DNA from: Bacillota bacterium
GTDB taxonomy: Bacteria; Bacillota; Syntrophomonadia; Syntrophomonadales; Syntrophomonadaceae
Reading direction: 5' to 3'
Assembly (NCBI GenBank): GCA_017861475.1
Contig: JAGFXV010000023.1
Coordinates: 1-10,325, forward strand
DNA: 10,325 nt
Positions within the stretch are counted from its first letter, which is position 1; every line of letters begins with the position of its first letter. The notes under the pieces are model-generated. The model saw nothing but the letters and a program-made list of their open reading frames with translations, made no database searches and had not been told where the DNA came from. A program made the position numbers and the translations under genes. Of this stretch, positions 1 to 10,325 are shown one piece after another.

Positions 1-515
1 CTGTCAGCGATAATACTGCCAACGCGGACAAAAATTTATCAGCAGTTTTCGGAAAAGTTGAAAGCATAGATGGCAATAAATTGACCATAGCCCTTGTCCA
101 ACAACCAGAGCGCAAGGAAATGCCGGCAAAAGACGGTACCACCTCTTCAACGAACGGCACCGCAACCCAGGGGCAACCACCTCAGGACGGAACTGCACCG
201 CAGCCTTCCAAAACTGGTGAACCCCCAGCCGGTGGCCCAGGAGGAAATGGCGGAGCCCCTCCCGGGAACGGAGGATCTGCTCCTGAAATGGAATTGACCG
301 GTGAAAAACAGGTCATCATCGTTTCGGATGATACGGTCATTGAATCTGGCAGGATGGGCAATCCGCAGGATAGTTCAGCATCTGCAAATGAAATCACACT
401 TACTGATATTAAGGCCGGAATGATCGTTGAAGTTACTTTGAAAGCCAACAGTACTGACACGGAAAAAACTGCCGCAACCATCCGGGTGATGTCCCAGATG
501 AGTCAGCAGCAGTAA
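1..515 (+). CDS. Secreted Gly/Pro-rich protein of unknown function, 5' end missing
   Basis: The reading frame is open from the first full codon at position 3, so the gene begins upstream of the window; the TTG at 81 is internal, not a start. Visible parts are a short beta-like segment (FGKVESIDGNKLTIAL), a low-complexity linker rich in Gly, Pro, Gln and Thr, and a second beta-rich segment (LTGEKQVIIVSDDTVIE, then LTDIKAGMIVEVTL) ending in SQMSQQQ. This order of an opening GKV-x-x-IDGN-x-(L/I)-T motif, a Pro/Gly linker and a closing DIK-x-G motif resembles small exported proteins of Firmicutes that contain a DUF5666-like fold. That likeness is from memory and no function is known for them. Any signal peptide or lipobox would lie to the left. 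It converges on the xdhC-like gene. Confidence 0.7.
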   Translation, partial: VSDNTANADKNLSAVFGKVESIDGNKLTIALVQQPERKEMPAKDGTTSSTNGTATQGQPPQDGTAPQPSKTGEPPAGGPGGNGGAPPGNGGSAPEMELTGEKQVIIVSDDTVIESGRMGNPQDSSASANEITLTDIKAGMIVEVTLKANSTDTEKTAATIRVMSQMSQQQ

Positions 516-527
516 TATAAAATCTGG

Positions 528-550
528 CCTGATTTCGTCTTAGAATCAGG
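528..550. repeat. Inverted repeat after the secreted-protein gene
   Basis: CCTGATT and AATCAGG face each other across a 9-nt loop, 12 nt after the stop codon. No T-tract follows on the plus strand, so it is at best a weak or Rho-assisted 3'-end hairpin. Confidence 0.4.
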
Positions 551-597
551 TCAAAGACTGACAATTTATGCAATCGAGCAAAAAAGGTTTAGAGCAA

Positions 598-667
598 GGC
601 AATCGTGAAGTCCGCGATTGAGCCGGCGCAAGGTATGGGGACACACCCCCTTTGGGGGAATGTCCCC
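598..667. repeat. Composite REP-like palindromes
   Basis: Two hairpins stand in tandem in the gap between convergent genes. The first pairs CAATCG (600-605) with CGATTG (615-620). The second is a two-tier palindrome: GGGGACA (637-643) pairs with TGTCCCC (661-667), with CCCCC (646-650) and GGGGG (654-658) nested inside around a TTT loop. The GGGGAC core recurs at 8264, 8290 and 9455 in this window, which suggests one dispersed repeat family. Neither hairpin has a T-tract. Nothing else was recognised between 516 and 730. Confidence 0.6.
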
Positions 668-730
668 GTAACAAGTACGTCGATTGAACGGGCTTCCAGA
701 TTAACGCAGCTATAAACCTTTTTGGCCGGT

Positions 731-1264
731 CTAAAACAGCTCATCTCGTTTGACTTTACCACTCTGTCTCCCCTTGATCAGCATAAAGCCACCCGGTCGA
801 TGATATTTCACCGCCTGAATTTCAGCCACGACCGACAACGCAATTTCAGCCGCCCTTTGTCCGCCCAGATCGAGTCCGATGGGGGCGTGAACTTTTTCAA
901 TCAGTTCGTCTGCAATTCCCATGGCAGTCAATTTGCTGAAATAGTTGCCTACCTGATGTCTGTTGCAGAGGACCCCGATATATCTGGCCGGAGAATAGAT
1001 CACTGTCTTTAGCACCGCTTCGTCGAATTCATGACGGCGGGTCACAATCACAATGCTGTCATCCCTGGTGATATCGTATCGGCTGATATTCTCAATAATG
1101 TCGCCCAGGATAAGTTCTCCGGCCAGGGGAAATCTCTCCCGGGTCAGCATTTCTTCATCATTGTCAATGATTACAATGTTATAGTCCAGCAGACTGGCAA
1201 ACTTGTAGACATAAAAAGCCACATTGCCGCTGCCGGTTATGATTATTTTATCACTATGTTCCAT
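731..1264 (-). CDS. XdhC-family protein, C-terminal Rossmann domain only
   Basis: The protein has 177 residues from an ATG at 1264, preceded by AGGAG at a 4-nt spacing. An in-frame TTG at 1297 lacks a Shine-Dalgarno sequence. The N-terminus is a Rossmann unit: GSGNVA at residues 11-16, and Asp34 at the end of the second strand (IVIIDNDEE). The C-terminal half carries the XdhC C-terminal signature: PARYIGVLCNR, then a helix, then HAPIGLDLGGQ and EIALSVVAEIQA. XdhC/CoxF-type proteins help insert or sulfurate the molybdenum cofactor of xanthine dehydrogenase-type enzymes; the Rossmann domain is thought to bind a nucleotide or cofactor. The N-terminal XdhC_CoxI domain of about 100 residues is absent, so this is a stand-alone half. 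It lies 113 nt downstream of the HPRT-like gene on the same strand and is probably cotranscribed. A TrkA-N-type redox sensor is a less likely alternative. Confidence 0.75.
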   Translation of the reverse strand: MEHSDKIIITGSGNVAFYVYKFASLLDYNIVIIDNDEEMLTRERFPLAGELILGDIIENISRYDITRDDSIVIVTRRHEFDEAVLKTVIYSPARYIGVLCNRHQVGNYFSKLTAMGIADELIEKVHAPIGLDLGGQRAAEIALSVVAEIQAVKYHRPGGFMLIKGRQSGKVKRDELF

Positions 1265-1377
1265 TTGTCTCCTGCTTTCACCTGACGATTGTTTCAAAAC
1301 TCCGCCTTGCCGGCATAAATATCAAGTCAGGTAATTTCTATGATCCTGTTCTGGGATTTATGCTTGGCTATATAATT

Positions 1378-1908
1378 TCAGTGCCGGTGATATTCGGCGA
1401 TATAAGGGAGATTGCGATATTCTTCCTTGTAGTCCAGCCCGTAGCCCACCAGAAACATATCGGGCATGGTAAAACACCGGTAGTCTATTTTTATGGTCAG
1501 GATGCGGCCGGCCGGATTGTCCAGCAGCGTGCAGATTTTGAAACTGGCCGGGCCGGAATCCTCAAGGTGCTGGATCACATACCCCAGGGTCAGGCCGGTG
1601 CCGATCACATCTTCGACCAGCAGCACGTGCCGATCTTTTAAGTTTATATCCAGATTGCGGGTAAAATGAATCCCGCTGCCGTGGTTGGTGGATGGAGGTG
1701 TTGCTGCTATGGACAGAAAATCGATACTGAGCGGCATGGTGAGTTGTCTGGTCAGATCGGCCAAAAAATAGATCGAACCTTTCAGCACACTGACGATGAC
1801 CAGTTTTTGCCCGGCATAGTCCCGGTTTATCTCTCCGGCTACTTCCCTGAGCCGGGCCTGTATCTGTTCCTCGGTATAGACGATCCTTCCCAAACCGGGC
1901 GTGTTCAT
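1378..1908 (-). CDS. Divergent hypoxanthine phosphoribosyltransferase-family protein
   Basis: The protein has 176 residues, normal for bacterial HPRT, which makes IMP or GMP from a purine base and PRPP. Family features present are VSVLKGSIYFLADL (pyrophosphate loop, residues 39-52), the PRPP-loop stretch VLLVEDVIGTGLTL (95-108), and the base-binding end PDMFLVGYGLDYKEEYRNLPYI (149-170). Two departures are clear. The PRPP loop reads EDVIGTG where the family has ED-x-x-DTG, so the Asp usually proposed as catalytic base is Gly103 (codon GGC). The flexible-loop Ser-Tyr of canonical enzymes (VSSYG) is replaced by LSIAATPP. The start ATG overlaps the stop of the upstream kinase-like gene (TGATG), so translation is very likely coupled, and AGGGGA lies about 11 nt upstream. 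It is either a paralogue with reduced or altered chemistry or a purine/PRPP-binding protein. Confidence 0.85.
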   Translation of the reverse strand: MNTPGLGRIVYTEEQIQARLREVAGEINRDYAGQKLVIVSVLKGSIYFLADLTRQLTMPLSIDFLSIAATPPSTNHGSGIHFTRNLDINLKDRHVLLVEDVIGTGLTLGYVIQHLEDSGPASFKICTLLDNPAGRILTIKIDYRCFTMPDMFLVGYGLDYKEEYRNLPYIAEYHRH

Positions 1909-2837
1909 CAGTCATCGTTCCCCTTCCGCAGTCCGAATCTCTCCGCCAGATGATAAAATTCATGCTTGTAAACAATGTTGATATTGATATCCGGATACAG
2001 TTTCTGCAGCAGTTTGACCTTTTTTTTCTTGTGAGAAACATACTTCTGCTCCATGGTGGTCAGTTCGATATAGGTATCAAAATGGGGCAGGTAAAAATCA
2101 GGCGCGAAGGCCTGGATAACATTGCCCTCCGTATCCCACTGCACCGGGAAGGTGCGCGGCTCATATTCCCATTTGATATTGTGCATGTCAAGGATCGTGG
2201 CAAATTCCTCTTCCGACGGATGTTTAAAGACCACCGGCCGGGCTTCATGATCATTCTCTGCTGCATCCTGCACCTGAAAGCCCACCTGCAGATCGCGGGC
2301 CGCGAAGGCCAGCAGTTCTGCTCCATCCTCGGTGCTTATATGATCCGTATTGAGGATCAGGTGATAAAGGGTTGGGTCCGCCCAGTCGCGCTCGTAAATC
2401 GTGGCGATATAGCGACGGTGCTTGCGGTCGGTCAGTTCGAGAAATCTTTCTGCATCCTTTTCCCCCATGTTTAGGTTCTTCATCAAACGTTTGCTTCTGA
2501 CTTGCGTCGAAGCCATAATTTTAACGTGCAGGACCCCCGGTTGCTGCGCAAAAATGATCTGCGCCCCCAATCCGAAAATAATCGCTGAATGTTGTGCGGC
2601 ATATTCTTTCAAGCGGTTTTCCAGATAAGCTGCATAGGTAATCCCTTGCGAAAATTCGTTCAGAAAATAACGAGGGCTTTCCGAGAGCATATGCAGTTCA
2701 TGTTTATCAGCAATCTCGGGGAACCATTGGCTCATGACCAAATCCCTGGTGATGACCGGCAGATCCAGTTTCAATGCGAGAAGGTCAGTTATTTCCTTGC
2801 CGAGACTGCCTGTTTCACGTGAAACAGTGATCAACAT
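1908..2837 (-). CDS. Cytidylate-kinase-like protein with C-terminal nuclease-like domain
   Basis: The protein has 309 residues, with a strong Shine-Dalgarno (GGGAGGTGA) 6 nt before the ATG. Residues 1-185 fit the cytidylate kinase-like family (PF13189 type): an opening ITVSRETGSLGKE with a P-loop-like G10-x-x-G13-K14, IIFGLGAQ near 87-93, KIMAS, an Arg-rich helix, and ERDWADPTLYHLILNTDHIS at 149-168. Family members of about 200 residues are predicted nucleotide or nucleoside kinases. The additional 100 residues (about 205-302) contain EYEPRTF, a PDFYLP motif (D247), YIELTTMEQK (E258, K265) and a Lys-rich helix KKKKVKLLQKLYP. This order resembles a PD-(D/E)xK nuclease core, but Thr sits where the ExK lysine is expected, so catalysis is uncertain. 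It is the first gene of the group, coupled to the HPRT-like gene. Codons 4-9 coincide with a parS site. The substrate is unknown. Confidence 0.75.
   Translation of the reverse strand: MLITVSRETGSLGKEITDLLALKLDLPVITRDLVMSQWFPEIADKHELHMLSESPRYFLNEFSQGITYAAYLENRLKEYAAQHSAIIFGLGAQIIFAQQPGVLHVKIMASTQVRSKRLMKNLNMGEKDAERFLELTDRKHRRYIATIYERDWADPTLYHLILNTDHISTEDGAELLAFAARDLQVGFQVQDAAENDHEARPVVFKHPSEEEFATILDMHNIKWEYEPRTFPVQWDTEGNVIQAFAPDFYLPHFDTYIELTTMEQKYVSHKKKKVKLLQKLYPDININIVYKHEFYHLAERFGLRKGNDD
2811..2826. other. parS: parS site, ParB/Spo0J chromosome-segregation centromere
   Basis: The sequence TGTTTCACGTGAAACA is a perfect 16-bp palindrome identical to the parS consensus established for Bacillus subtilis Spo0J. 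ParB clamps load on such sites by CTP-dependent closure and recruit SMC. It lies within the coding region, overlapping codons 4-9 (TVSRET) of the kinase-like gene, as parS sites often lie inside genes. parS sites cluster around the replication origin, so the window is probably origin-proximal; that is inference. The overlapped peptide is part of a conserved family motif, so chance resemblance through codon choice is possible but would need every synonymous choice to match. Confidence 0.8.
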
Positions 2838-2892
2838 AAACCGTCACCTCCCGTATCCCGCCTCACATCTTGGGATGTATGCGGCTAATTAA

Positions 2893-2933
2893 ATTATATC
2901 ATTAAATTATATTCGTGTTTATCAGCTTGTCCG
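2893..2933 (-). promoter_or_regulatory. Probable sigma-A promoter(s) of the kinase/HPRT group
   Basis: On the minus strand, two exact TATAAT boxes occur at 2911-2906 and 2898-2893. The outer one has CGGACA (2933-2928, 4 of 6 to TTGACA) at a 16-nt spacing. The second box has no clear -35. Transcription would begin about 60 nt before the kinase-like start codon. A short hairpin, ACATC/GATGT with a TTGG loop, lies between promoter and ribosome binding site. Confidence 0.5.
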
Positions 2934-3132
2934 TCGATTTATATTTTTGCCGGTTATTTTAAATTTTAAAAAATATTTTTTCTGTCACACAAAGCATATC
3001 CGATATTTCCGCATCTTTGTTTTTTAGCCGATTAAAATTTATGAAATTTTTATTAAATCGAAGATCGAGGGAGATAAATCAGGCAGATGATGCCGCAAGA
3101 ATTATTTTCAGAATATTCAATCTTTTTTGCCG
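2934..3132. other. AT-rich divergent intergenic DNA without a gene
   Basis: This stretch lies between the two divergent promoters. It is very AT-rich, with runs of A and T around 2955-2983. It includes an imperfect dyad at 3029-3060 in which CGATT pairs with AATCG and AAATTT faces AAATTT across ATG. I see no open frame with a ribosome binding site. It may hold UP-like or curved upstream elements for the flanking promoters, but nothing specific was recognised. Confidence 0.4.
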
Positions 3133-3133
3133 T

Positions 3134-3162
3134 TTGCCTGCTGCCTAATAGTTCTGTATTAT
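3134..3162 (+). promoter_or_regulatory. Promoter of the structured RNA
   Basis: TTGCCT (3134-3139, 4 of 6 to TTGACA) and TATTAT (3157-3162, 5 of 6 to TATAAT) are separated by exactly 17 nt. The predicted start, about 7 nt after the -10 box, falls at 3169, which is the first base of the terminal helix of the RNA. That agreement between two independent signals is the main support. Confidence 0.6.
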
Positions 3163-3168
3163 TAAATC

Positions 3169-3502
3169 AAGCTCCAAGGAATTCCTAAGACGGAAACCCT
3201 TCCGAGCCGGAAAACAGGAAACGCAACATGACAACTGAATATAAGGCTAGTGAAAGCGGATTTCACTATATCAAACGGAATCAGGGAAAAAGGTTTGTGA
3301 CCGGGATTGAAAAGCGGAAGTTCAGGGTTGTTGATCTGAAAAGGTTGTCAAGCAGGAACAGAAGTAGCCAAAGCCAGTACAGACGAGGAGTAACTGAAAC
3401 CCGCAAGACGAAGGCCTTATAAGCAAGTTGAAATGGGAAACGTAATGAAGAAGGCAAAGAAAGGCGGAAATCGATAAAGGTTCGTTGGAGCTTTCTTTTT
3501 CT
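3169..3502 (+). ncRNA. Large structured non-coding RNA of unknown family
   Basis: The ends pair: AAGCTCCAA (3169-3177) is complementary to TTGGAGCTT (3485-3493), extended by GAA/TTC across one G-G mismatch, and is followed by TCTTTTTCT as an intrinsic end. Inside, a nested long-range helix pairs CAT (3227-3229), CAACT (3232-3236) and TATAAGGC (3240-3247) with ATG (3433-3435), AGTTG (3426-3430) and GCCTTATA (3414-3421). Stacked directly on it is a perfect 8-bp hairpin, TAGTGAAA/TTTCACTA (3248-3268). Further hairpins are 3191-3204, 3321-3340 and 3375-3396. The unpaired parts are purine-rich. It is about 335 nt with its own promoter, divergent from the kinase-like gene and convergent with the vanZ-like gene, so it is not a leader of either. 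It does not look like tmRNA, 6S, SRP or RNase P RNA. Large orphan RNAs such as raiA-type are possible but not recognised. Confidence 0.65.
3485..3502 (+). terminator. 3' half of terminal stem plus U-tract ending the structured RNA
   Basis: The 3' strand of the terminal helix (GC-containing, 9 bp) is followed at once by T-C-TTTTT. The matching 5' strand is over 300 nt away at 3169. AAAGAAAG at about 3456-3463 can also pair with CTTTCTTT at 3491-3498, so an alternative local hairpin competes for the same bases. Confidence 0.5.
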
Positions 3503-3544
3503 GCCTTTAAAACCATTAGCGCAAAAATAGAGTTTCTCCGTCGG

Positions 3545-4057
3545 TTAATCAACAGTGTCTTCATCGTTGACCCTCCGTCTGCTCCGCCATTGTTTCACCA
3601 ACAGCACCAGAACCACACCTGTCAACGTACCGCATAAATCAAGGCACAGATCAGTTAATTCAAAGGCCCGTCCGGCCACAAACAACTGGTGCGTTTCATC
3701 GCTTAATGCATAACCCATACATATAAGGAGCGTTAAAGCAGCCTGTTGCCCTTTTTTAAAATTATGCTGCAGCAAGGCAATAGTGCAAAGTGTCGCCAGT
3801 AAAAAATAGCTTAGGTAATGAGCCGTATTTCTGACGATATGCTGCAGGCTGGACACCAGTTGGGTCTGCTGCAGGGCGGTCATATGTAAATATTCAGGTT
3901 TCAAAATCGTCAGCAGGGCCCGGATCGTTTCCCCGCTCAGTACGGTTGATTCTTTGGCCGTCTGGGATGAGAAAAAGAAAAGCATCCCCGTCCAGGCGAT
4001 TACCAGCAGCCAGGCGATCAATTTCTTATATATTGACGGAGTTTCATTTGTTTTCAT
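3545..4057 (-). CDS. VanZ-like membrane protein
   Basis: The protein has 170 residues, with AAAGGA about 7 nt before the ATG. Four hydrophobic segments are visible, at about residues 11-29, 76-95, 103-116 and 138-153. VanZ-family hallmarks are present: WTGMLFFFSSQ in the first helix, RNTAHYLSYFLLA (Arg and His before the second helix), ALSDETHQLFVAGRAFELTDLCLDLCGTLTG in the third to fourth segment, and a basic C-terminal tail. VanZ was named for a teicoplanin-resistance accessory protein, but most homologues outside glycopeptide operons are unlinked to resistance and their activity is unsettled, so no resistance role is claimed. It appears monocistronic and converges on the structured RNA, with only about 40 nt between its stop codon and the RNA's U-tract. 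Confidence 0.85.
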   Translation of the reverse strand: MKTNETPSIYKKLIAWLLVIAWTGMLFFFSSQTAKESTVLSGETIRALLTILKPEYLHMTALQQTQLVSSLQHIVRNTAHYLSYFLLATLCTIALLQHNFKKGQQAALTLLICMGYALSDETHQLFVAGRAFELTDLCLDLCGTLTGVVLVLLVKQWRSRRRVNDEDTVD

Positions 4058-4121
4058 GTTTGATCCTTTCGTCGAACGTCACGGTTTTTTTCGGAGATTA
4101 ACAGCAAAGGGCCATTCTCAT

Positions 4122-4149
4122 AAATTACCATACTGGCAAAAAAAATCAA
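4122..4149 (-). promoter_or_regulatory. Candidate promoter of the vanZ-like gene
   Basis: On the minus strand, TTGATT (4149-4144) and TAATTT (4127-4122) are 16 nt apart, and the -10 box is preceded by TGG, an extended -10 arrangement. Both hexamers are imperfect (4 of 6), so this is moderate evidence. Confidence 0.35.
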
Positions 4150-4201
4150 CCCTGCTCCCCCCATCCATCGTAGCCATGAATTTATTCCCGGCAAAATTTG
4201 A

Positions 4202-4335
4202 GCGGGGTTAAAACCCCGCCCACAGGTATGATATTCCCCCGCGATGGTTGCCTGGAAACGATGCGGGTGGTAATATCTTATTCAGCGCTTGGCTTTGCTG
4301 CCGTTTGTGAAGGCGGGATTGAAATCCTGCCTTCA
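4202..4335. repeat. Cluster of three palindromes upstream of the RluA-family gene
   Basis: Three hairpins follow one another. The first is GCGGGGTT (4202-4209) with AACCCCGC (4212-4219). The second has arms 4230-4242 and 4263-4277, paired over 13 bp with two bulged T residues. The third has 13-nt arms at 4308-4320 and 4323-4335, with one G-T pair around a GA loop. The cores of the first and third (GCGGGGTT..AACCCCGC against GCGGGATT..AATCCTGC) differ by changes that preserve pairing, so they look like two copies of one repeat. The stretch from 4058 to 4364 contains no credible gene. The T-poor flanks argue against simple terminators. Confidence 0.6.
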
Positions 4336-4364
4336 GATCACATAAAACAGGAGAAATATTATAT

Positions 4365-5261
4365 ATGGATGAAAATTTGCTGATTTACGTGGTCGATCCG
4401 GAAGATCGATTAATTTATCTGCGGGATGTTTTTAAACACAAGCTTCCCATGTCCCATGCGCTGCTGGCCCGGCTCAAGGCACAGGAAAAGATCCGCGTCA
4501 ATGGCGAGTTTGCCCATACCAACTACCGCCTGCAGCCCGGCGACCGGATCACCGTTGACCTGAATATGGATGAAATAAATACGATCATACCGCAGGATAT
4601 CCCTCTTGATATTGTGTATGAGGACGCTGATTTGATGGTGATCAACAAACCTGCTGGCATGGCAGTTCATCCCATCAAAGAAAAAACCGAGGGAACCCTG
4701 GCCAACGCCGTCACCCATTATTGGCTGCAGAGGAGCGAGTCGCGCCTGTTTCGCCCCGTCAACCGCCTTGACAAGGGCACCTCCGGTCTGGTGCTGATCG
4801 CCAAAAGCCAGTATGCCCATCAGGCCATGTTCAGGCAGCAGAAGCAAGGTCTGATCCAGCGCCGTTATCTGGCCGTCGTGGACGGTGTAGTGGAGGAAGA
4901 CCAAGGCCTCATTGACCTTCCTATCGCCCGCACTCTGCCGGGCAGTCAGGTTTTTCGCCAGGTCGATGATGACGGAAAACCTGCCATCACCCATTTTACA
5001 GTGGAGAAAAGATTTCAGGACAAGACCCTGCTTCGCCTGCGTTTGCAAACCGGCCGCACTCATCAGATCCGTGTCCATATGAGTTACATCGGCCATCCGG
5101 TCTGCGGCGATCCCATCTACGGGCAGACTTCACCGCTTATCACCCATCAGGCTTTGCATGCCGGCTGGACTTCTTTTTTGCAGCCCCGCACCCAGACCCG
5201 TCTGGAATTTGAAATACAGTTGCCGCAAGATATGCAATATCTGCTTTCCCAACTCCGATAA
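4365..5261 (+). CDS. RluA/RluD-family 23S-type RNA pseudouridine synthase
   Basis: The protein has 298 residues, usual for the RluD group, with AGGAGA 10 nt before the ATG. An S4-like RNA-binding segment occupies about residues 15-70 (LKAQEKIRVNG, LQPGDRITV). The catalytic domain has the entry motif VINKPAGMAVHP (92-103), motif II FRPVNRLDKGTSGLVLIAKS (129-148) with the catalytic Asp at 136, the stretch QRRYLAVVDG, RLQTGRTHQIRVHMSYIGHPVCGD (226-249), and the closing IYG and HA-x-x elements. The enzyme isomerises uridine in structured RNA, most often in 23S rRNA; the target site cannot be read from sequence. It departs slightly from the common motif HRLDRDTSG, with Asn for His and Gly for the second Asp; similar variants occur in the family and Asp136 is intact. 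It is a single gene followed directly by a strong terminator. Confidence 0.92.
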   Translation: MDENLLIYVVDPEDRLIYLRDVFKHKLPMSHALLARLKAQEKIRVNGEFAHTNYRLQPGDRITVDLNMDEINTIIPQDIPLDIVYEDADLMVINKPAGMAVHPIKEKTEGTLANAVTHYWLQRSESRLFRPVNRLDKGTSGLVLIAKSQYAHQAMFRQQKQGLIQRRYLAVVDGVVEEDQGLIDLPIARTLPGSQVFRQVDDDGKPAITHFTVEKRFQDKTLLRLRLQTGRTHQIRVHMSYIGHPVCGDPIYGQTSPLITHQALHAGWTSFLQPRTQTRLEFEIQLPQDMQYLLSQLR

Positions 5262-5294
5262 AAAAAGCGCCAGGCAATTTGTCTGGCGCTTTTT
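5262..5294. terminator. Bidirectional intrinsic terminator
   Basis: A 12-nt arm, AAAAAGCGCCAG (5262-5273), pairs perfectly with CTGGCGCTTTTT (5283-5294) around a 9-nt loop. The A-run and T-run give a U-tract on either strand. It lies between the convergent RluA-family and S-layer-protein genes and ends both. Confidence 0.93.
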
Positions 5295-5309
5295 GCTCGT
5301 TAGATATTC

Positions 5310-7493
5310 CTAATAATTGCTCTTCTGGCTGGCGGTCGTCAAGGTACGGACCAGAACGGCGGCAGCTTCACCGCGGGTGGTCTGATGGGAAGCATTGAAA
5401 TTAACGCCGTCTCCTTTGATTATCCCCAAACCCCAGGTCAAAGCTGCGTAGCCTTTCAAATCAGCGTTCAGGGTGGAGAAATCCCGGTAGGGCGCCTGCA
5501 GCGCCGGAGAAGGCATTTTGGCTATAAATTCCACATCCAGCATCCGGACCATCAGCTGTGCCAGCAGCCCGGTGGTCATGACGGTTTTCGCATCCATTTT
5601 CTCTTTCAGCCATTTGTTGCGTACCGCCTGGTCAATGATCTCCTCGTCAGTTACGGTACTGGGGTTGTAATAACCGCTTTGGGCCATGATCATGGCACGC
5701 AGCATGGTCACCAGATTGATTTGTTCCTGGGGATGGAAAGCGGTGTCGTATTCACTCATGATTCCTGCCTGACCCAGCATGGAGATCTCCTTCTCCGCAA
5801 AAAGTCCGGCAATGTCGTTAAAAGCATGTGGCTGCAGACTATCGGCCACCGGTGTCCCATCCCAGTTCAGCGGCTCGCCGCTCTGCGCATCGATAATGTT
5901 GCTCTGCCGGGCAGGGACTGCGGCCCGGGGAACATAAACCAGTTTGTATTCACCGGAAGTTTCACTTCTCATGGTTGTCTGTGGATAGATCAACTCATAT
6001 TGCAGCGTCAGCGGCTGATTCTGCAGATACATTTGCACGGCTTTGTCCATGCCCATGACCTTGGCCGGGTCGGGGAACTGCAGAGACGGCCAGATATAGC
6101 TGTAGGAAGTGATCTGTTTGCTGCGGCCGTCAACGGTGATACGAATGCCATGCGTCGGACAGGGAATGTCGTTCTCCACGCGGGTAAACATAAACTGCCA
6201 TTGATCCGGATTGCCTGCTTCCTTACTGTAGATCTCCTGGTAAGTGTCCTTCTCCAGTCGCACCGATTTCTGTTTTTCCGGCTGGATCCTGCTCATAAAA
6301 TCGCGGGCGATTTTTTCCGCGGCAGATTTGTCCAGCGTCGGTTTTACTTCGCTCGAATTGCGCCGGTCAATATAGAAATTCATAATCTCCCCGGTCACAG
6401 CATCAACCTGGGCACTGACATAAATATATGTCTGGGCGTCCGCATCGCTGCGCCAGTTGAGGTTCCAGATACGTTTCTCCGGATCCTGATAATCTTTGTA
6501 TAAATTGGCTTCTTGCAGTTTGCTGTCGGACGGTATCGTCACCCATTGTTTTACGACCGAAACAGCTTTCTCCTGGGAAATAAGATTGAGTGTATTATCG
6601 ATTTCTGCTTGCTCCTGCGGGCTTAAATCAGCTTGCGGACTGTTCATACTCTTCTCGGCGGACCCCATTCCCTCGACATCATTGATTCCGTATATATTCT
6701 GATTTTCCATCGGCTTGCCGCTGACGGCGTCAATAACTCCGCCGGAGGAATGTGTCAGACGGTAAACCAGGCGGGGCTGAACTTTTTCCCCTGCACTGCG
6801 GATCGTATATTCGGGCGCAACAAAATATTGCAGTTCCAGCATATTGTTGGAGGCAAACGCCGCTGCTGCCTGCTCAGCGGATATATATTCGGCTTTGGCA
6901 GGAATGACTTTGTCAGACCAGTTCAGATTGTAGCTGTTCACTGTGCCATTGCTGCTGCTGATCTGGATGGTGACCCCCTCGTCTCCTACCGGTACCTGAT
7001 TGGCCATCCTCTGCCAGTGCAGCTCATACTGTCCCCCTTCCCAACTGCTCAGGGGGATGATCTGCTGGTTGGGTACATATTGCAGATAAGCGACCCGGTC
7101 GGGGATCAGTTTTTTAAGCAGATCGAGACCGATTTTTTGCGCTTGCTCGATCGAAACAGCCGGGATCTCAGTCGTCTGACGACCCTGTCTGTAGATATGC
7201 ATGGAGGTGATGACGCCGGTGGTGGCGTTGACTTCGGCGTTCATGGATCCTTTCATGTTTTGCTTGTCAGTCCAGTTCAATGTCCAGATCTGACCGTTGT
7301 CACTGCTGCGAAAGCCGGACGTAAACTCCGTGTACTCTGCGGGTACGGTAAAATTCTGTTTAACCTTCTGGATGGCCTGTTCCAGCGACAGCGCCGGTTT
7401 ATTTTCCGCCGCCATGACACCAGTCGGCAGCATGGCAAACAACATCAGGACCATCACCAGCAGGCTCATTCCTCTGCGTAAACGATTGTTCAT
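5310..7493 (-). CDS. Secreted YcdB/YcdC-repeat protein with C-terminal SLH domains
   Basis: The protein has 727 residues from the ATG at 7493, with AGGAGA about 9 nt upstream; the in-frame GTG at 7499 sits too close to it. A classical signal peptide (RLRR, hydrophobic core, VMA before AENKP) ends near residue 28. Residues 35-262 and 304-542 are two diverged copies of one module. Each has a helix (SLEQAIQKVKQNF; SQEKAVSVVKQWV), an IW-x-LNW strand, a VTG turn, a second AAEKIA-type helix, and an IDA-x-SG-x-P end, like the YcdB/YcdC (DUF4901, PepSY-like) domains. Three SLH-type repeats follow (558-605, a degenerate one about 617-660, and 669-717), which would bind secondary cell-wall polymer. The protein is expected on the cell surface. 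PepSY-like modules are often peptidase-inhibitory, but the role here is unknown. It appears monocistronic. Confidence 0.85.
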   Translation of the reverse strand: MNNRLRRGMSLLVMVLMLFAMLPTGVMAAENKPALSLEQAIQKVKQNFTVPAEYTEFTSGFRSSDNGQIWTLNWTDKQNMKGSMNAEVNATTGVITSMHIYRQGRQTTEIPAVSIEQAQKIGLDLLKKLIPDRVAYLQYVPNQQIIPLSSWEGGQYELHWQRMANQVPVGDEGVTIQISSSNGTVNSYNLNWSDKVIPAKAEYISAEQAAAAFASNNMLELQYFVAPEYTIRSAGEKVQPRLVYRLTHSSGGVIDAVSGKPMENQNIYGINDVEGMGSAEKSMNSPQADLSPQEQAEIDNTLNLISQEKAVSVVKQWVTIPSDSKLQEANLYKDYQDPEKRIWNLNWRSDADAQTYIYVSAQVDAVTGEIMNFYIDRRNSSEVKPTLDKSAAEKIARDFMSRIQPEKQKSVRLEKDTYQEIYSKEAGNPDQWQFMFTRVENDIPCPTHGIRITVDGRSKQITSYSYIWPSLQFPDPAKVMGMDKAVQMYLQNQPLTLQYELIYPQTTMRSETSGEYKLVYVPRAAVPARQSNIIDAQSGEPLNWDGTPVADSLQPHAFNDIAGLFAEKEISMLGQAGIMSEYDTAFHPQEQINLVTMLRAMIMAQSGYYNPSTVTDEEIIDQAVRNKWLKEKMDAKTVMTTGLLAQLMVRMLDVEFIAKMPSPALQAPYRDFSTLNADLKGYAALTWGLGIIKGDGVNFNASHQTTRGEAAAVLVRTLTTASQKSNY

Positions 7494-7570
7494 CCTCACA
7501 CTCTCCTGTCATAAATAAGTACAATGTTTCACCCCTGAAGATCCGTTCTGTCTTCCCTGCCTTTAAAACA

Positions 7571-7606
7571 CACTTGAGTGGTGCACCCCACGTGGTCGGG
7601 ATTATA
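7571..7606 (-). promoter_or_regulatory. Promoter region with adjoining dyads for the S-layer-protein gene
   Basis: An exact TATAAT lies on the minus strand at 7606-7601; no good -35 is seen. Immediately downstream, around the expected start, are three abutting dyads: CCACGTGG (7588-7595), GGTGCACC (7580-7587) and CACTTGAGTG (7571-7580). This is a plausible operator or leader hairpin region. The leader to the ATG would be about 100 nt. Confidence 0.4.
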
Positions 7607-7671
7607 TAACTCCCAGAATTATCTTCTATACCCATTTACGGTTTCGGTCTGCTTACCTTACACGTACAGTC

Positions 7672-7701
7672 AAAAAAACCCGGGGATCAAATACCCCGGG
7701 T
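7672..7701 (-). terminator. Intrinsic terminator of the small membrane-protein gene
   Basis: Read on the minus strand, ACCCGGGG pairs with CCCCGGGT around an 8-nt loop, and a run of seven T follows. It starts 12 nt after the stop codon of the upstream minus-strand gene. Confidence 0.92.
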
Positions 7702-7713
7702 CTGCTGAAATAT

Positions 7714-8175
7714 TTACGCGTCTTCAAAACCGCCGGCTCGTAATTTTCTTTGAAAATAGATAAAGATCGGAAAAGGAATAATGATCCACCCCATGCTCTT
7801 GATCAGACTGTTGGTGGCCCGTTCAGTTTGCCTTTGTTTCTCCGCTGCGACCATCGCATCATAGTTTTCTTTCAATTGTTTCTCGGTCATTTTGCTGACA
7901 TCACCGGCGGAAGCTTCCATTTTTGCCCCGCCTTGCTTAAATTCTTCAAAAGACTGGTAATAACCGGTGGGAGCGACCATATCAGCGATCGCCATAAAAG
8001 CAGCTACTCCCCCGCCAATGGTCATCATCAAGGTTGCAAACAGTACCAGGTAAACATAAACCTTCTTAATCACTTCATCGCCTCCATTTTTGGATTCACT
8101 TTTAGCCCCGGCAATAATCAAGCCAGCCAATGCCAGAATTCCGCACAGTACCAATAAAGATACCACCATGCTCAT
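7714..8175 (-). CDS. Small membrane protein of unknown function (DUF5671-like)
   Basis: The protein has 153 residues from the ATG at 8175, preceded by GAGGTGG; an in-frame GTG at 8202 lacks a ribosome binding site, and a second ATG at 8169 is also possible. Three hydrophobic segments are visible: residues 3-23, 38-66 (VYVYLVLFATLMMTIGGGVAAFMAIADMV) and 129-141 (WIIIPFPIFIYF). The second opens with a Lys-Lys then a Tyr-rich start, as in DUF5671-type proteins. A charged, partly helical stretch (75-125, rich in Glu, Lys and Gln) separates the last two. I do not recognise a function; the DUF5671 likeness is only suggestive. It has its own promoter and terminator, so it is probably a single-gene transcript, separated from the DUF4405 gene by a REP-type hairpin. 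Confidence 0.65.
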   Translation of the reverse strand: MSMVVSLLVLCGILALAGLIIAGAKSESKNGGDEVIKKVYVYLVLFATLMMTIGGGVAAFMAIADMVAPTGYYQSFEEFKQGGAKMEASAGDVSKMTEKQLKENYDAMVAAEKQRQTERATNSLIKSMGWIIIPFPIFIYFQRKLRAGGFEDA

Positions 8176-8222
8176 ATGCCACCTCAATTCCGCATTTTGC
8201 ACTGTATATCAACTATATGCTC

Positions 8223-8228
8223 ATTATA
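8223..8228 (-). promoter_or_regulatory. -10 box of the small membrane-protein gene
   Basis: An exact TATAAT on the minus strand lies 48 nt upstream of the chosen ATG. The -35 region (TGTTTT) is poor. Confidence 0.4.
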
Positions 8229-8253
8229 GCCGATTACTTTCACCAAAAACAGA

Positions 8254-8363
8254 AAGTTGACAGTGGGGACGGTCCTTTTCGCGCAAGTCGGGGACGGTTA
8301 GTGCTTGCGTGAAAATGGTCTCACGCGCAAGCAAGAACCGTCCCCGACTTGCGCGACTTGCGC
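8254..8363. repeat. Large REP-like palindromic element
   Basis: Perfectly complementary 21-nt arms lie at 8279-8299 and 8336-8356, each containing the GGGGACGGTT/AACCGTCCCC core. Inside, GCTTGCG pairs with CGCAAGC and TGA with TCA around a short loop, giving an almost continuous hairpin. Flanking it are a second GGGGACGGT copy (8264-8272) and a tandem duplication of GACTTGCGC (8346-8354 and 8355-8363). Part of the unit recurs at the right edge of the window. It lies 11 nt after the stop of the DUF4405 gene, so it may also shape that mRNA's 3' end. No transposase is present here. Confidence 0.8.
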
Positions 8364-8366
8364 ATA

Positions 8367-9323
8367 CTATTGAACGTAAGTCGCTTGATATTGCTGCTGG
8401 GCTGCTTCCAGTTGGGGAATACCGCGGTCACATCGTAAACTTAGCAGAGAGCAATGTTTCTCACAAGCATCGCAGAACAAGCTGCTCAGGTAAGTATTCA
8501 GAGAAGGTTTGTCATCGCTGCTGCCGGAGCTGATGCTGCTATTCGAAGATGTATCGCTGCTCTGCTCTGATTGAGTGAGACTGTCACCGCTATCCGTGAC
8601 TGAATTGTCGTCAGTGGTTGGATTTGAATACTGGGGAGCGTTGTCTTCATAGTAGACATTACCGCCCTGTTCCCAGCCGTGACCATGTCCATGTCCGTTG
8701 CGGGGACGATCCGCATAATAGTTATCCTGGTTTTGAACGGATTCCTGCTGGCCCTTGTCGTTGGCTGCGGTATTCGCGCTGGAAATCTCCTTGGAGAATG
8801 CGCCGGTTTGCGTATACAAAAGACTGAGAATCAGTAAAATCCCTGCCATGCTCAGTCCTGCCCTGGCCCATGCCGGTCGGGCCGGAGCCTTGAACAGTTT
8901 GGGTACGTTTTTCTTGATAAACTGCCAGTGCAGAACAATATGCAGCCCGAATAAACCGATACATGCATAGGAAACCCATTTATGCACGTCGACCAGCGTG
9001 TGACTGATCATTTCATCGGAGGGAAACAGAACCATGGAGATCTGTACGCCTGTAATGATGATCGTCGCTACCGCCAGCAAAGATACGGTGTTGAGCAGAT
9101 AAAATAGCCTGGGTTTGGTTTTCATCCGGGGATTGAAAAGATTTTTGGTGATGCTTTTGACCCATGACCAATTGAGGACGATATGGTAAATGAGCAATCC
9201 GCCCATGACCAGCCCGGCGATTTCATGAAAGGTAAAGCCGGTGTCCTTTGCATATAACAAAGCAATAAACAATATGGTCAGAACGATATCCAAAATCAGT
9301 TTGGTACGATTTCGTTCCTGCAT
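8367..9323 (-). CDS. DUF4405 haem-b-type membrane protein with C-terminal four-cysteine motif
   Basis: The protein has 318 residues from the ATG at 9323; an in-frame ATG at 9338 lies over the GGAGGA that serves this start. Helices are at about residues 8-25, 33-51, 73-100, 112-133 and 155-171. Conserved His residues (FHEIAG His33, IYHIVLNW His47, DVHKWV His114, GLHIVLHW His128 and His132) sit as in DUF4405/cytochrome-b561-like proteins and could ligate two haems. Then follows a long hydrophilic linker with HGHGHG (211-216) and a Ser/Asp-rich part. The tail is FCDACEKHCSLLSLRC, giving Cys284-x2-Cys287-x3-Cys291-x6-Cys298, a pattern that could hold an iron-sulfur cluster or zinc. A redox role at the membrane is inferred. 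It is divergent from ylmH. Confidence 0.75.
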   Translation of the reverse strand: MQERNRTKLILDIVLTILFIALLYAKDTGFTFHEIAGLVMGGLLIYHIVLNWSWVKSITKNLFNPRMKTKPRLFYLLNTVSLLAVATIIITGVQISMVLFPSDEMISHTLVDVHKWVSYACIGLFGLHIVLHWQFIKKNVPKLFKAPARPAWARAGLSMAGILLILSLLYTQTGAFSKEISSANTAANDKGQQESVQNQDNYYADRPRNGHGHGHGWEQGGNVYYEDNAPQYSNPTTDDNSVTDSGDSLTQSEQSSDTSSNSSISSGSSDDKPSLNTYLSSLFCDACEKHCSLLSLRCDRGIPQLEAAQQQYQATYVQ

Positions 9324-9396
9324 TTTAAATTCCTCCATATCAGATTTGAATTTTAACCTATCGATAGTTTATCCGGCGAATATGAATTTCCCGTGA

Positions 9397-9416
9397 AATA
9401 ATTCTTAAGAATTATT
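9397..9416. promoter_or_regulatory. Perfect 20-bp palindrome, probable operator
   Basis: AATAATTCTTAAGAATTATT is exactly self-complementary and lies in the divergent DUF4405/ylmH intergenic region. A smaller palindrome, CTATCGATAG, is at 9358-9367. Length and symmetry suit a dimeric winged-helix or Fur-type repressor, but I cannot name the protein. Confidence 0.5.
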
Positions 9417-9440
9417 AATAGAAAGTTGCTAAAATTAATC

Positions 9441-9481
9441 AAAAGTGGACAGATGGGGACGTACCCCGATTGTCAACTTTT
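9441..9481. repeat. REP-like hairpin in the ylmH leader
   Basis: Four paired blocks are symmetric: AAAAGT/ACTTTT, GACA/TGTC and GGGG/CCCC, with a single mismatch and a GAT/GAT internal loop, around ACGTA. It shares ATGGGGAC with the element at about 635. It ends 38 nt before the ylmH start codon and is followed by T-rich sequence, so in the plus direction it could attenuate transcription. Confidence 0.6.
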
Positions 9482-9518
9482 TCACACTTTTCCAGGGAAG
9501 TCGAAGGGGGTGGTGGCC

Positions 9519-10295
9519 ATGAACCAATATTTGCTGAATCTGGCTGTCAACGCAGAGGAAAGACAACTGCTGGCCCGGCTGGACGAGCTGGCCCGTAAGG
9601 CTTCGCAGGGAACGGCAGGCCGGAGCGATTTTTTGGATCTTCGCCAGCAGGTTTTGGCCGAGGCAGTTGCAGCCCAGTATGGAGAAATCGTCTGGCAAAT
9701 TGACGGAGGATTTGAAGGCGCGGAGCGCAAGCGTTTGCTGCTCGGTCCGGCCTGGGAAAATGACGACCTGGATAATCAAATCCAGTGCCTGCATATAAAA
9801 AGCACCGACAAAATGGGATCGTCGCCGGGACATCGGGACTATCTGGGCGCCATCATGAATCTTGGCCTCAAGCGAGAGAAATTCGGCGACATCCTTGTAC
9901 AGGAGCGGGAAGCTTTCGTCATGGCCGACCGAAGCATGAGCGCCTATCTCTGCCAGCAGCTTGAACGGGTGGGACACAGCAAAGTGACTACCGAAGTGAT
10001 TGCCATGAAAGATCTGCAGCTTCCTGAAGCAGCCCCACAGCAGATCACCTGTACCGTTTCCGCATTGCGTCTGGACGCGGTATTGGCTGCCGCCTGCCGG
10101 ATATCGCGGGCAGCAGCAGTGGAGCTGATTGAAGCTGGTCAGGTGCGGTTAAACCACCAGGTGATAGAGAAAAACGCCTCATTATTGGAAGAAGCGGATT
10201 TGCTCTCGGTACGGGGCTACGGCCGTATCCGCGTGGATGAAGTGGAAGGCGTCAGCAAAAAAGGCCGCCTGCGGATACGCCTGTCCAAATGGTAA
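9519..10295 (+). CDS. ylmH: YlmH, S4-domain ribosome-associated RNA-binding protein
   Basis: The protein has 258 residues, as in B. subtilis YlmH. The start ATG at 9519 follows AAGGGGGTG at a good spacing; the frame is open further upstream but runs through the hairpin. The N-terminal half shows the family core: an HIKSTDKMGSSPGHRDYLGAIMNLGLKREKFGDILV stretch at residues 92-127 and AFVMADRSMSAYL. The S4 domain spans about 182-245 (SALRLDAVLAAACRISRAAAVELIEAGQVRLNHQ, then GRIRVDEV), with a basic tail. YlmH is reported to bind 50S-peptidyl-tRNA complexes and to act like RqcP in ribosome-associated quality control. The family usually lies in the ylmD-sepF-ylmG-ylmH-divIVA division cluster; here the left neighbour is unrelated and REP-like sequence follows, so it appears detached. 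Confidence 0.92.
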   Translation: MNQYLLNLAVNAEERQLLARLDELARKASQGTAGRSDFLDLRQQVLAEAVAAQYGEIVWQIDGGFEGAERKRLLLGPAWENDDLDNQIQCLHIKSTDKMGSSPGHRDYLGAIMNLGLKREKFGDILVQEREAFVMADRSMSAYLCQQLERVGHSKVTTEVIAMKDLQLPEAAPQQITCTVSALRLDAVLAAACRISRAAAVELIEAGQVRLNHQVIEKNASLLEEADLLSVRGYGRIRVDEVEGVSKKGRLRIRLSKW

Positions 10296-10296
10296 C

Positions 10297-10325
10297 CCCG
10301 CGCAAGTCAAGAACCGTCCCCAACT
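10297..10325. repeat. Partial REP-like unit at the right edge
   Basis: The sequence from 10299 onward repeats 8324-8349 (CGCGCAAG, AAGAACCGTCCCC, ACT) with one inserted T and one G-to-A change. The element continues beyond the window, so its partner arm is not visible. Confidence 0.7.

Follow-up and report, generated by a model that had tools for sequence, protein, structure and literature searches.

In this study we analysed a 10,325-nt stretch of DNA from a Bacillota bacterium of the Syntrophomonadaceae (GCA_017861475.1, contig JAGFXV010000023.1, positions 1–10,325, + strand; hereafter the window), and our comparisons suggest that positions 3169–3493 encode a trans-acting structured RNA. 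This RNA appears to be the noncoding partner of a neighbouring operon that encodes KIN, in which a kinase-like domain is fused to a nuclease-fold domain, together with a second hypoxanthine phosphoribosyltransferase (HPRT). It is most likely the RNA of a ribonucleoprotein, a reading to which we assign a probability of about 0.72. Genome comparison shows an RNA gene family with a predicted promoter, a conserved rod and handle, joint presence and absence with KIN, and linkage to KIN across distant lineages. That linkage, a fused protein variant and the finding that the RNA and KIN occur or are missing together inside single genera point to one system composed of the RNA, the nuclease-fold protein and HPRT. 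This system is probably an undescribed RNA-protein machine, with the RNA as one of its halves. The RNA and its parts lie in the window as follows:

3134–3162, + strand: promoter read from the sequence, TTGCCT (3134–3139), 17-nt spacer and TATTAT (3157–3162), scoring 9/12
3169–3493, + strand: structured noncoding RNA of 325 nt, a single long nested rod that carries a side hairpin; 238 bits with covariance model R1, whose training set includes the window copy
3169–3177, + strand: 5′ arm of the closing (handle) helix, AAGCUCCAA; helix 1, 98.6% of cells paired
3485–3493, + strand: 3′ arm of the closing (handle) helix, UUGGAGCUU, then a U-rich run at 3494–3502 (sequence and alignment)
3179–3186, + strand: inner handle, GAA (3179–3181) with UUC (3481–3483) and CCU (3184–3186) with AGG (3478–3480), adjoined by a G·G mismatch at 3178/3484 (columns 11–18 with 369–374 of alignment A1)
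3227–3247, + strand: 5′ arms of rod helices 6–8, whose partner is 3414–3435 (sequence and alignment)
3248–3268, + strand: side hairpin UAGUGAAA/UUUCACUA, overlapping the conserved CACUAUAUC (3264–3272); helix 9, 82.5% paired
3414–3435, + strand: 3′ arms of rod helices 6–8 (sequence and alignment)

The first-pass annotation of this DNA had described a large structured RNA with its own promoter and closing helix, and each of the structural parts it named is present. The two ends are complementary, with 3169–3177 (AAGCTCCAA) pairing with 3485–3493 (TTGGAGCTT), and a T-rich run follows from 3494. A nested 3+5+8 helix joins CAT, CAACT and TATAAGGC (3227–3229, 3232–3236 and 3240–3247) to 3433–3435, 3427–3431 and 3414–3421, next to an 8-bp hairpin (3248–3255/3261–3268). 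These elements correspond to consensus helices 1, 6, 7, 8 and 9 of alignment A1, which holds 39 copies (37 loci, a second copy from L097 and the window copy) and in which they are paired in 98.6, 67.5, 61.5, 82.8 and 82.5% of cells. The annotation had staked its helices beforehand on covariation among homologues, and such covariation is present in them.

Single-sequence folding by itself is weak evidence for structure here. The + strand of the RNA folds with a z of −2.29, with 1/100 shuffles folding equally well; for the opposite strand the fold is at least equally good (z −3.46). On sequence grounds, it is homology rather than single folds that settles that the structured RNA is real. The 39 copies of A1 were folded one by one, and 35 of them also in six subgroups of 2–10, which likewise gave nested rods running from end to end with the same closing helix. 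In the resulting 71-pair consensus 84.1% of cells are paired, a figure that is the one chiefly inflated by deriving the structure from the same sequences. Two-sided changes occur at 45/71 pairs and in 216 cells, compared with 32.4 and 82.6 in shuffles, and 0/500 shuffles reach the observed values, counts that kinship among the A1 rows makes optimistic. The covariation score is 0.275, versus 0.173 for shuffled alignments and 0.06–0.09 for a slid structure, and helices 7 and 11 are the weakest (both 61.5% paired). Because G-U cells exceed A-C cells in the consensus pairs (260 versus 101), the + strand is favoured. The model covers nested pairs only. Conservation is concentrated in the paired ends and the rod: aligned copies share the constant ends AAGCTCCARGGAAnnCCTAAGAYGGAA and GATAAAGGTTCGYTGGAGCTT, have −35 and −10 elements upstream and, in several cases, a hairpin and T-run downstream. 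In distant copies the handle letters differ yet stay complementary.

The family extends well beyond the source assembly (77% complete), in which the RNA is single-copy. BLASTN across 61 genomes, the window's own included, found clear relatives at E ≤ 1e-6 in nine others, eight from the same family and one from a different family, with several copies in G016 and G017. An exact scan of named genomes for the 5′ motif gave 47 loci, of which 42 fit the family model and five (L052, L063, L075, L087 and L092) were dropped as chance matches with no model match or no 3′ end. The 42 belong to Syntrophomonas and other Syntrophomonadaceae, Peptococcaceae UBA2264, Thermincola, Desulfosporosinus sp. Tol-M, Desulfitobacteriaceae, Proteiniclasticum aestuarii and unclassified Bacillota, Firmicutes and Clostridia. 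Four copies truncated at the edge of a record or locus (L055, L066, L078 and L081) were kept out of A1, as was a 172-nt copy (L096, 796–967) that keeps the promoter and both ends and is missing the central part of the rod. R1, the covariance model built from A1, matches 18/54 genomes of the family, 18/63 of the class (the 54 included) and 15/398 sampled genomes of the phylum, where only four candidates per genome were scored. The two weakest phylum matches, of 266 nt (E 5e-7) and 196 nt (E 9e-6), have like ends and different but complementary handle letters. A search of 12 genomes with a 9-base pattern was also made, the pattern being too short for use.

The annotation could not place the RNA in a known family, which agrees with our searches, and had named raiA-type and other large orphan RNAs as the first to test. 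Rfam 15 gave 0 matches at gathering score in the whole window and 0 up to E=10 on the RNA strand of 3050–3600. At the element in sets of 12 and 13 loci, and in L191, L192, L195 and L201, there were likewise 0 at gathering score; at E ≤ 1 there were none in L191 and L064, and the RNA elements of distant KIN loci had no match at gathering score. Since Rfam 15 returned no match, the RNA is not raiA, OLE, ROOL or GOLLD in their Rfam definitions. The empty scans led us to reject Rfam-defined large orphan RNAs in general, and they cover HEARO, 6S and YrlA too. A CsrB-like GGA decoy was weighed by eye on an alignment only, where several GGA motifs of the window are replaced by AGA or AAA, for example in L042. 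ARAGORN detected neither a tRNA nor a tmRNA in the window. Judged by these scans, the RNA gene family is new relative to Rfam 15. We found no description of the RNA or the operon in the literature searched; preprints and most subscription papers lay outside that search, and we therefore do not claim priority.

The sequences further suggest that the RNA may be transcribed on its own. A sigma-70-type promoter, predicted from the letters, scores at least 8/12 just upstream of 48/49 copies (mean 9.7, versus 6.5 when letter-shuffled). In 45/49 copies the spacing between the −10 element and the start of the first helix is exactly 6 nt, as in the window, where the element ends 6 nt before 3169; the annotation had put the predicted start at the first base of that helix. 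A simple hairpin terminator follows within 90 nt in 14/49 copies, against 1.2% in shuffled sequence, and the same scan found none at the window's own copy. The nearest downstream + strand gene starts at 4365, 872 nt from the RNA, with a − strand gene in between. Covariation, the promoter and the lack of a + strand gene before 4365 support, at the level of sequence, the free-standing RNA, rather than riboswitch, that the annotation proposed. With no nearby + strand gene, and with a placement relative to neighbouring genes that varies between lineages, the RNA does not look like a leader. A cis-regulatory leader or a small protein gene is accordingly very improbable as an explanation: a 64-aa frame at 3228–3422 would suit a small protein, but a closed frame of at least 50 aa is found in just 7/49 copies and the start codon of the window in 4/39 aligned copies.

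The closing helix could also be taken for the terminal inverted repeat of a mobile or repeat element resembling a miniature inverted-repeat transposable element, which would account for the terminal complementarity, the several copies per genome and the contig ends that fall inside the G016 copies. However, the handle letters change between lineages while pairing is kept, the promoter and structure are conserved, and the exact 5′ motif is found in 0 viral contigs. Extra copies also keep their neighbours in related genomes (L083/L086, L065/L091 and L054/L056/L079), as stable paralogues do, and we regard the chance of such an element as very slim. BLASTN against plasmids and phages gave best E values of 0.3 and 1. 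The riboswitch, protein-coding and transposable-element readings were thus rejected on gene context, frame counts and neighbour and viral evidence, respectively. One member of each of these three sets of extra copies was scanned for its neighbours, which are a two-component system, a protein whose match to DUF4153 falls short of the cut-off and an ADP-ribosylglycohydrolase.

The annotation had described the RNA as unlinked to a downstream gene. This holds for the downstream side, but the divergent operon upstream (1378–2837), 332 nt from the RNA, is linked to it and is the most informative feature of the locus. It comprises two genes:

1908–2837, − strand: KIN, 309 aa, with a Cytidylate_kin2 domain (residues 3–166; PF13189, E=1e-28) and a PD-(D/E)XK domain (residues ~199–302; window 1932–2243)
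1378–1908, − strand: second, operon-linked HPRT, 176 aa, with the catalytic-loop Asp changed to Gly (TIGR01203, 170.9 bits; cut-off 150)

Neighbour clustering around 49 RNA copies, with up to two open reading frames (ORFs) listed per side and many flanks ending at contig ends, placed KIN within two ORFs in 24/49 and a phosphoribosyltransferase in 18/49; the next cluster had 4 members. Across 63 genomes of the class, KIN is present in 15, all 15 of which carry the RNA, while three have the RNA only and 45 neither (Fisher p 7e-12). The RNA-only genomes (G064, G071 and G016) are incomplete assemblies (80, 88 and 73%). Within genera, g1 has one genome with both (G000) and two with neither (G001 and G002), g22 has three with both (G065–G067) and two with neither (G023 and G036), g9 has two with both (G010 and G074) and one with neither (G028), and g16 has three with both, three with neither and one with the RNA only. 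In the phylum, 39/398 genomes carry KIN, among them all 15 that match R1. Because KIN and the RNA copies lie on different contigs in G017, G068 and G069, their co-occurrence is not mere linkage. RNA copies also occur away from the operon, up to four per genome, and since they sit on either side of it and far away, the RNA would act in trans. Among the genomes searched, the RNA family is found almost only in those that carry KIN.

To cover distant families together with some R1-positive ones, 26 KIN loci were read with wide flanks. The RNA lies in the locus in 18 (one contig-cut, one weak) and elsewhere in the genome in 4 (G017, G068, G069 and G094), and none was detected for G141, G246, G317 and G421. 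Most loci carry an RNA of a common plan, with a promoter, a handle helix around CCRAG/UUGG and a variable body. Families f70, f49, f13, f125 and f55 have a second RNA type (ACCAGATTCCGAGAGRCA...GGYCTGTTGGAATCTGGT); f79 and f33 hold further types, and f126 a weak one. A handle finder recovered 12/26 KIN loci with best scores of 19–23, versus 1/26 and a best score of 16 in each of five shuffled rounds, and it gave 0 matches in 80 viral loci (717 kb); these controls belong to this stricter finder, the relaxed scan having none of its own. Type-2 copies share the common handle and have a poorly alignable body that is branched by single-sequence folding. R2, the covariance model built from nine of them, matches 10/398 genomes at E ≤ 1e-8, all KIN-positive, with G094, G211 and G118 outside the training set. 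Weak R2 matches (E ≥ 2.5e-4) fall in 15 further genomes, 13 of them KIN-negative, and the sole one of the 13 inspected (L307) lacks the handle helix. At E ≤ 1e-5 the union of R1 and R2 covers 24/39 KIN-positive versus 0/359 KIN-negative genomes. By model, finder or eye, 31 of the 39 have the RNA and 4 had none found; G133, G169, G204 and G322 gave no model match and were excluded from the local reading, and G322 matches the kinase part only. Two RNA copies, of the same or different type, lie near the operon in L186, L188, L192 and L203, and G400 has R2 matches on four contigs.

KIN scores over the PF13189 family cut-off, and its nuclease-fold part matches T7 endonuclease I by profile (E=5e-4) and a PHROG resolvase (E=7e-8). 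Predicted structures indicate a moderate fold relation of residues ~199–302 to T7 endonuclease I and PD-(D/E)XK resolvases. Across 33 aligned KIN proteins, E209, P246, D247, E258, T260, K270 and K273 are invariant, the PD and E of the PD-(D/E)XK motif are conserved in 33/33, and the ExK lysine is replaced by Thr in 33/33; the residue next to the P-loop glycine (residue 14) is acidic in 21/33. The relation to PD-(D/E)XK enzymes with conserved PD and E, a patchy distribution and a weak PADLOC match to HEAT_CxxC_PDDEXK (E=1e-4; PADLOC found no system beyond weak domain matches) would fit an RNA-controlled nuclease of defence or toxin-antitoxin-like type, in which KIN would cut nucleic acid and be held back or licensed by the RNA. 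We consider this unlikely, as the uniform Thr contrasts with the Lys kept in 12/12 readable viral-contig relatives (13 of 80 kept loci examined), the window RNA has no tandem repeats, viral contigs lack the exact 5′ motif, and the three KIN matches in annotated phages are confined to the kinase part. A type III toxin-antitoxin RNA was rejected, with 0 tandem repeat arrays in window 3050–3600. The KIN frame also contains, at 2811–2826, a 16-base palindrome (TGTTTCACGTGAAACA) that encodes part of VSRETG and that we take to be the parS (ParB/Spo0J) consensus.

The operon-linked HPRT adjoins KIN in 25/26 loci (24 by clustering, plus L195), L204 having an interrupted KIN. It is a second copy, as two HPRT paralogues are found in 12/14 KIN-positive genomes tested and one in 6/6 KIN-negative genomes. 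The Asp of the VEDxxDTG loop of HPRT has a catalytic role; it is missing in 9/27 operon-type HPRTs and retained in 8/8 housekeeping copies. On a Thermomicrobium roseum plasmid (NC_011961; L287, 3989–4990) a protein annotated only as hpt joins an endonuclease-I-like domain directly to HPRT, and no RNA was recognised at this fusion locus. A search of viral contigs for HPRT found no relative. In the window, an XdhC_C-domain gene (731–1297) directly follows the HPRT gene, a possible purine link, and it is not a recurrent neighbour among the 49 copies within two ORFs per side. The linkage to HPRT and a nucleotide-kinase-like gene, and the divergent position near the start of KIN in the window, might instead reflect a regulatory RNA, acting by base pairing or as a decoy, that adjusts purine salvage or KIN-HPRT expression without a stable ribonucleoprotein. 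This strikes us as less probable still than a controlled nuclease, given that conservation centres on the paired ends and rod and that copies lie away from the operon, up to four per genome.

For the ribonucleoprotein that we favour, the constant handle and variable body suggest protein binding at the handle. The nuclease-fold domain of KIN would bind the closing helix and its neighbouring mismatch, and the long variable body may serve as a scaffold or effector surface, as in Y RNA or OLE RNA. KIN and the second HPRT would be binding or nucleotide-sensing parts and not ordinary enzymes, because the ExK Lys is Thr throughout and the HPRT catalytic Asp is lost in this lineage. Two of the three protein parts thus have changed catalytic residues, which suggests binding or sensing over plain catalysis. 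Weighing against such a role, the invariant K270 and K273 could substitute for the ExK Lys in catalysis. More tentatively, the system could be a new class of ribonucleoprotein, in which a catalytically altered endonuclease fold with a kinase-like domain holds the constant handle of a variable-body RNA and the second HPRT senses purine or phosphoribosyl pyrophosphate, with nucleotide status controlling an RNA machine in many anaerobic Bacillota; we hold this to be possible, at rather worse than even odds. Nuclease, kinase and HPRT folds would then have been reused around an RNA. To our knowledge, bacteria have few large noncoding RNAs with dedicated protein partners, and a known partner or function is the exception. 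The present RNA comes with a testable partner, owing to its joint presence and absence with one protein and a fused variant that joins two protein parts, and lineages with short RNAs (~150–200 nt) suit structure work.

Several known systems provide points of comparison. OLE RNA, from anaerobic and extremophilic Bacillota, is reported to be a large, free-standing, conserved RNA that is found in Gram-positive anaerobes and assembles into a ribonucleoprotein (PMC12054373, PMC10898510). The window RNA is likewise large, conserved and free-standing, with ribonucleoprotein formation known for OLE RNA and inferred for the window RNA; it differs in having no Rfam match and a length of 325 nt versus ~600 nt. 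We know of no protein partner common to the two. The raiA motif, or ModT RNA (RF03072), is also a free-standing structured RNA of Bacillota. ModT RNA has been modelled with P1–P8 and two pseudoknots (PMC11706538), whereas the window RNA has no Rfam match and is modelled, with nested pairs only, as a single rod plus a side hairpin. With its conserved terminal helix as a presumed handle and its variable body, the window RNA resembles the Y RNAs and YrlA. In these RNAs, which associate with Ro/Rsr, a conserved terminal helix is the presumed protein handle and the body varies; unlike them, the window RNA has no Rfam match and its presumed partner has a nuclease fold and is not Ro. On the protein side, residues ~199–302 of KIN resemble T7 endonuclease I and PD-(D/E)XK resolvases by sequence profile and moderately by fold, but KIN has Thr for the ExK Lys, a kinase-like fusion and an RNA-tied presence. 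The operon HPRT scores over the TIGR01203 cut-off like a hypoxanthine phosphoribosyltransferase, yet it is a second copy and has Gly for the catalytic-loop Asp in the window. PyrR offers a precedent for an RNA-binding phosphoribosyltransferase.
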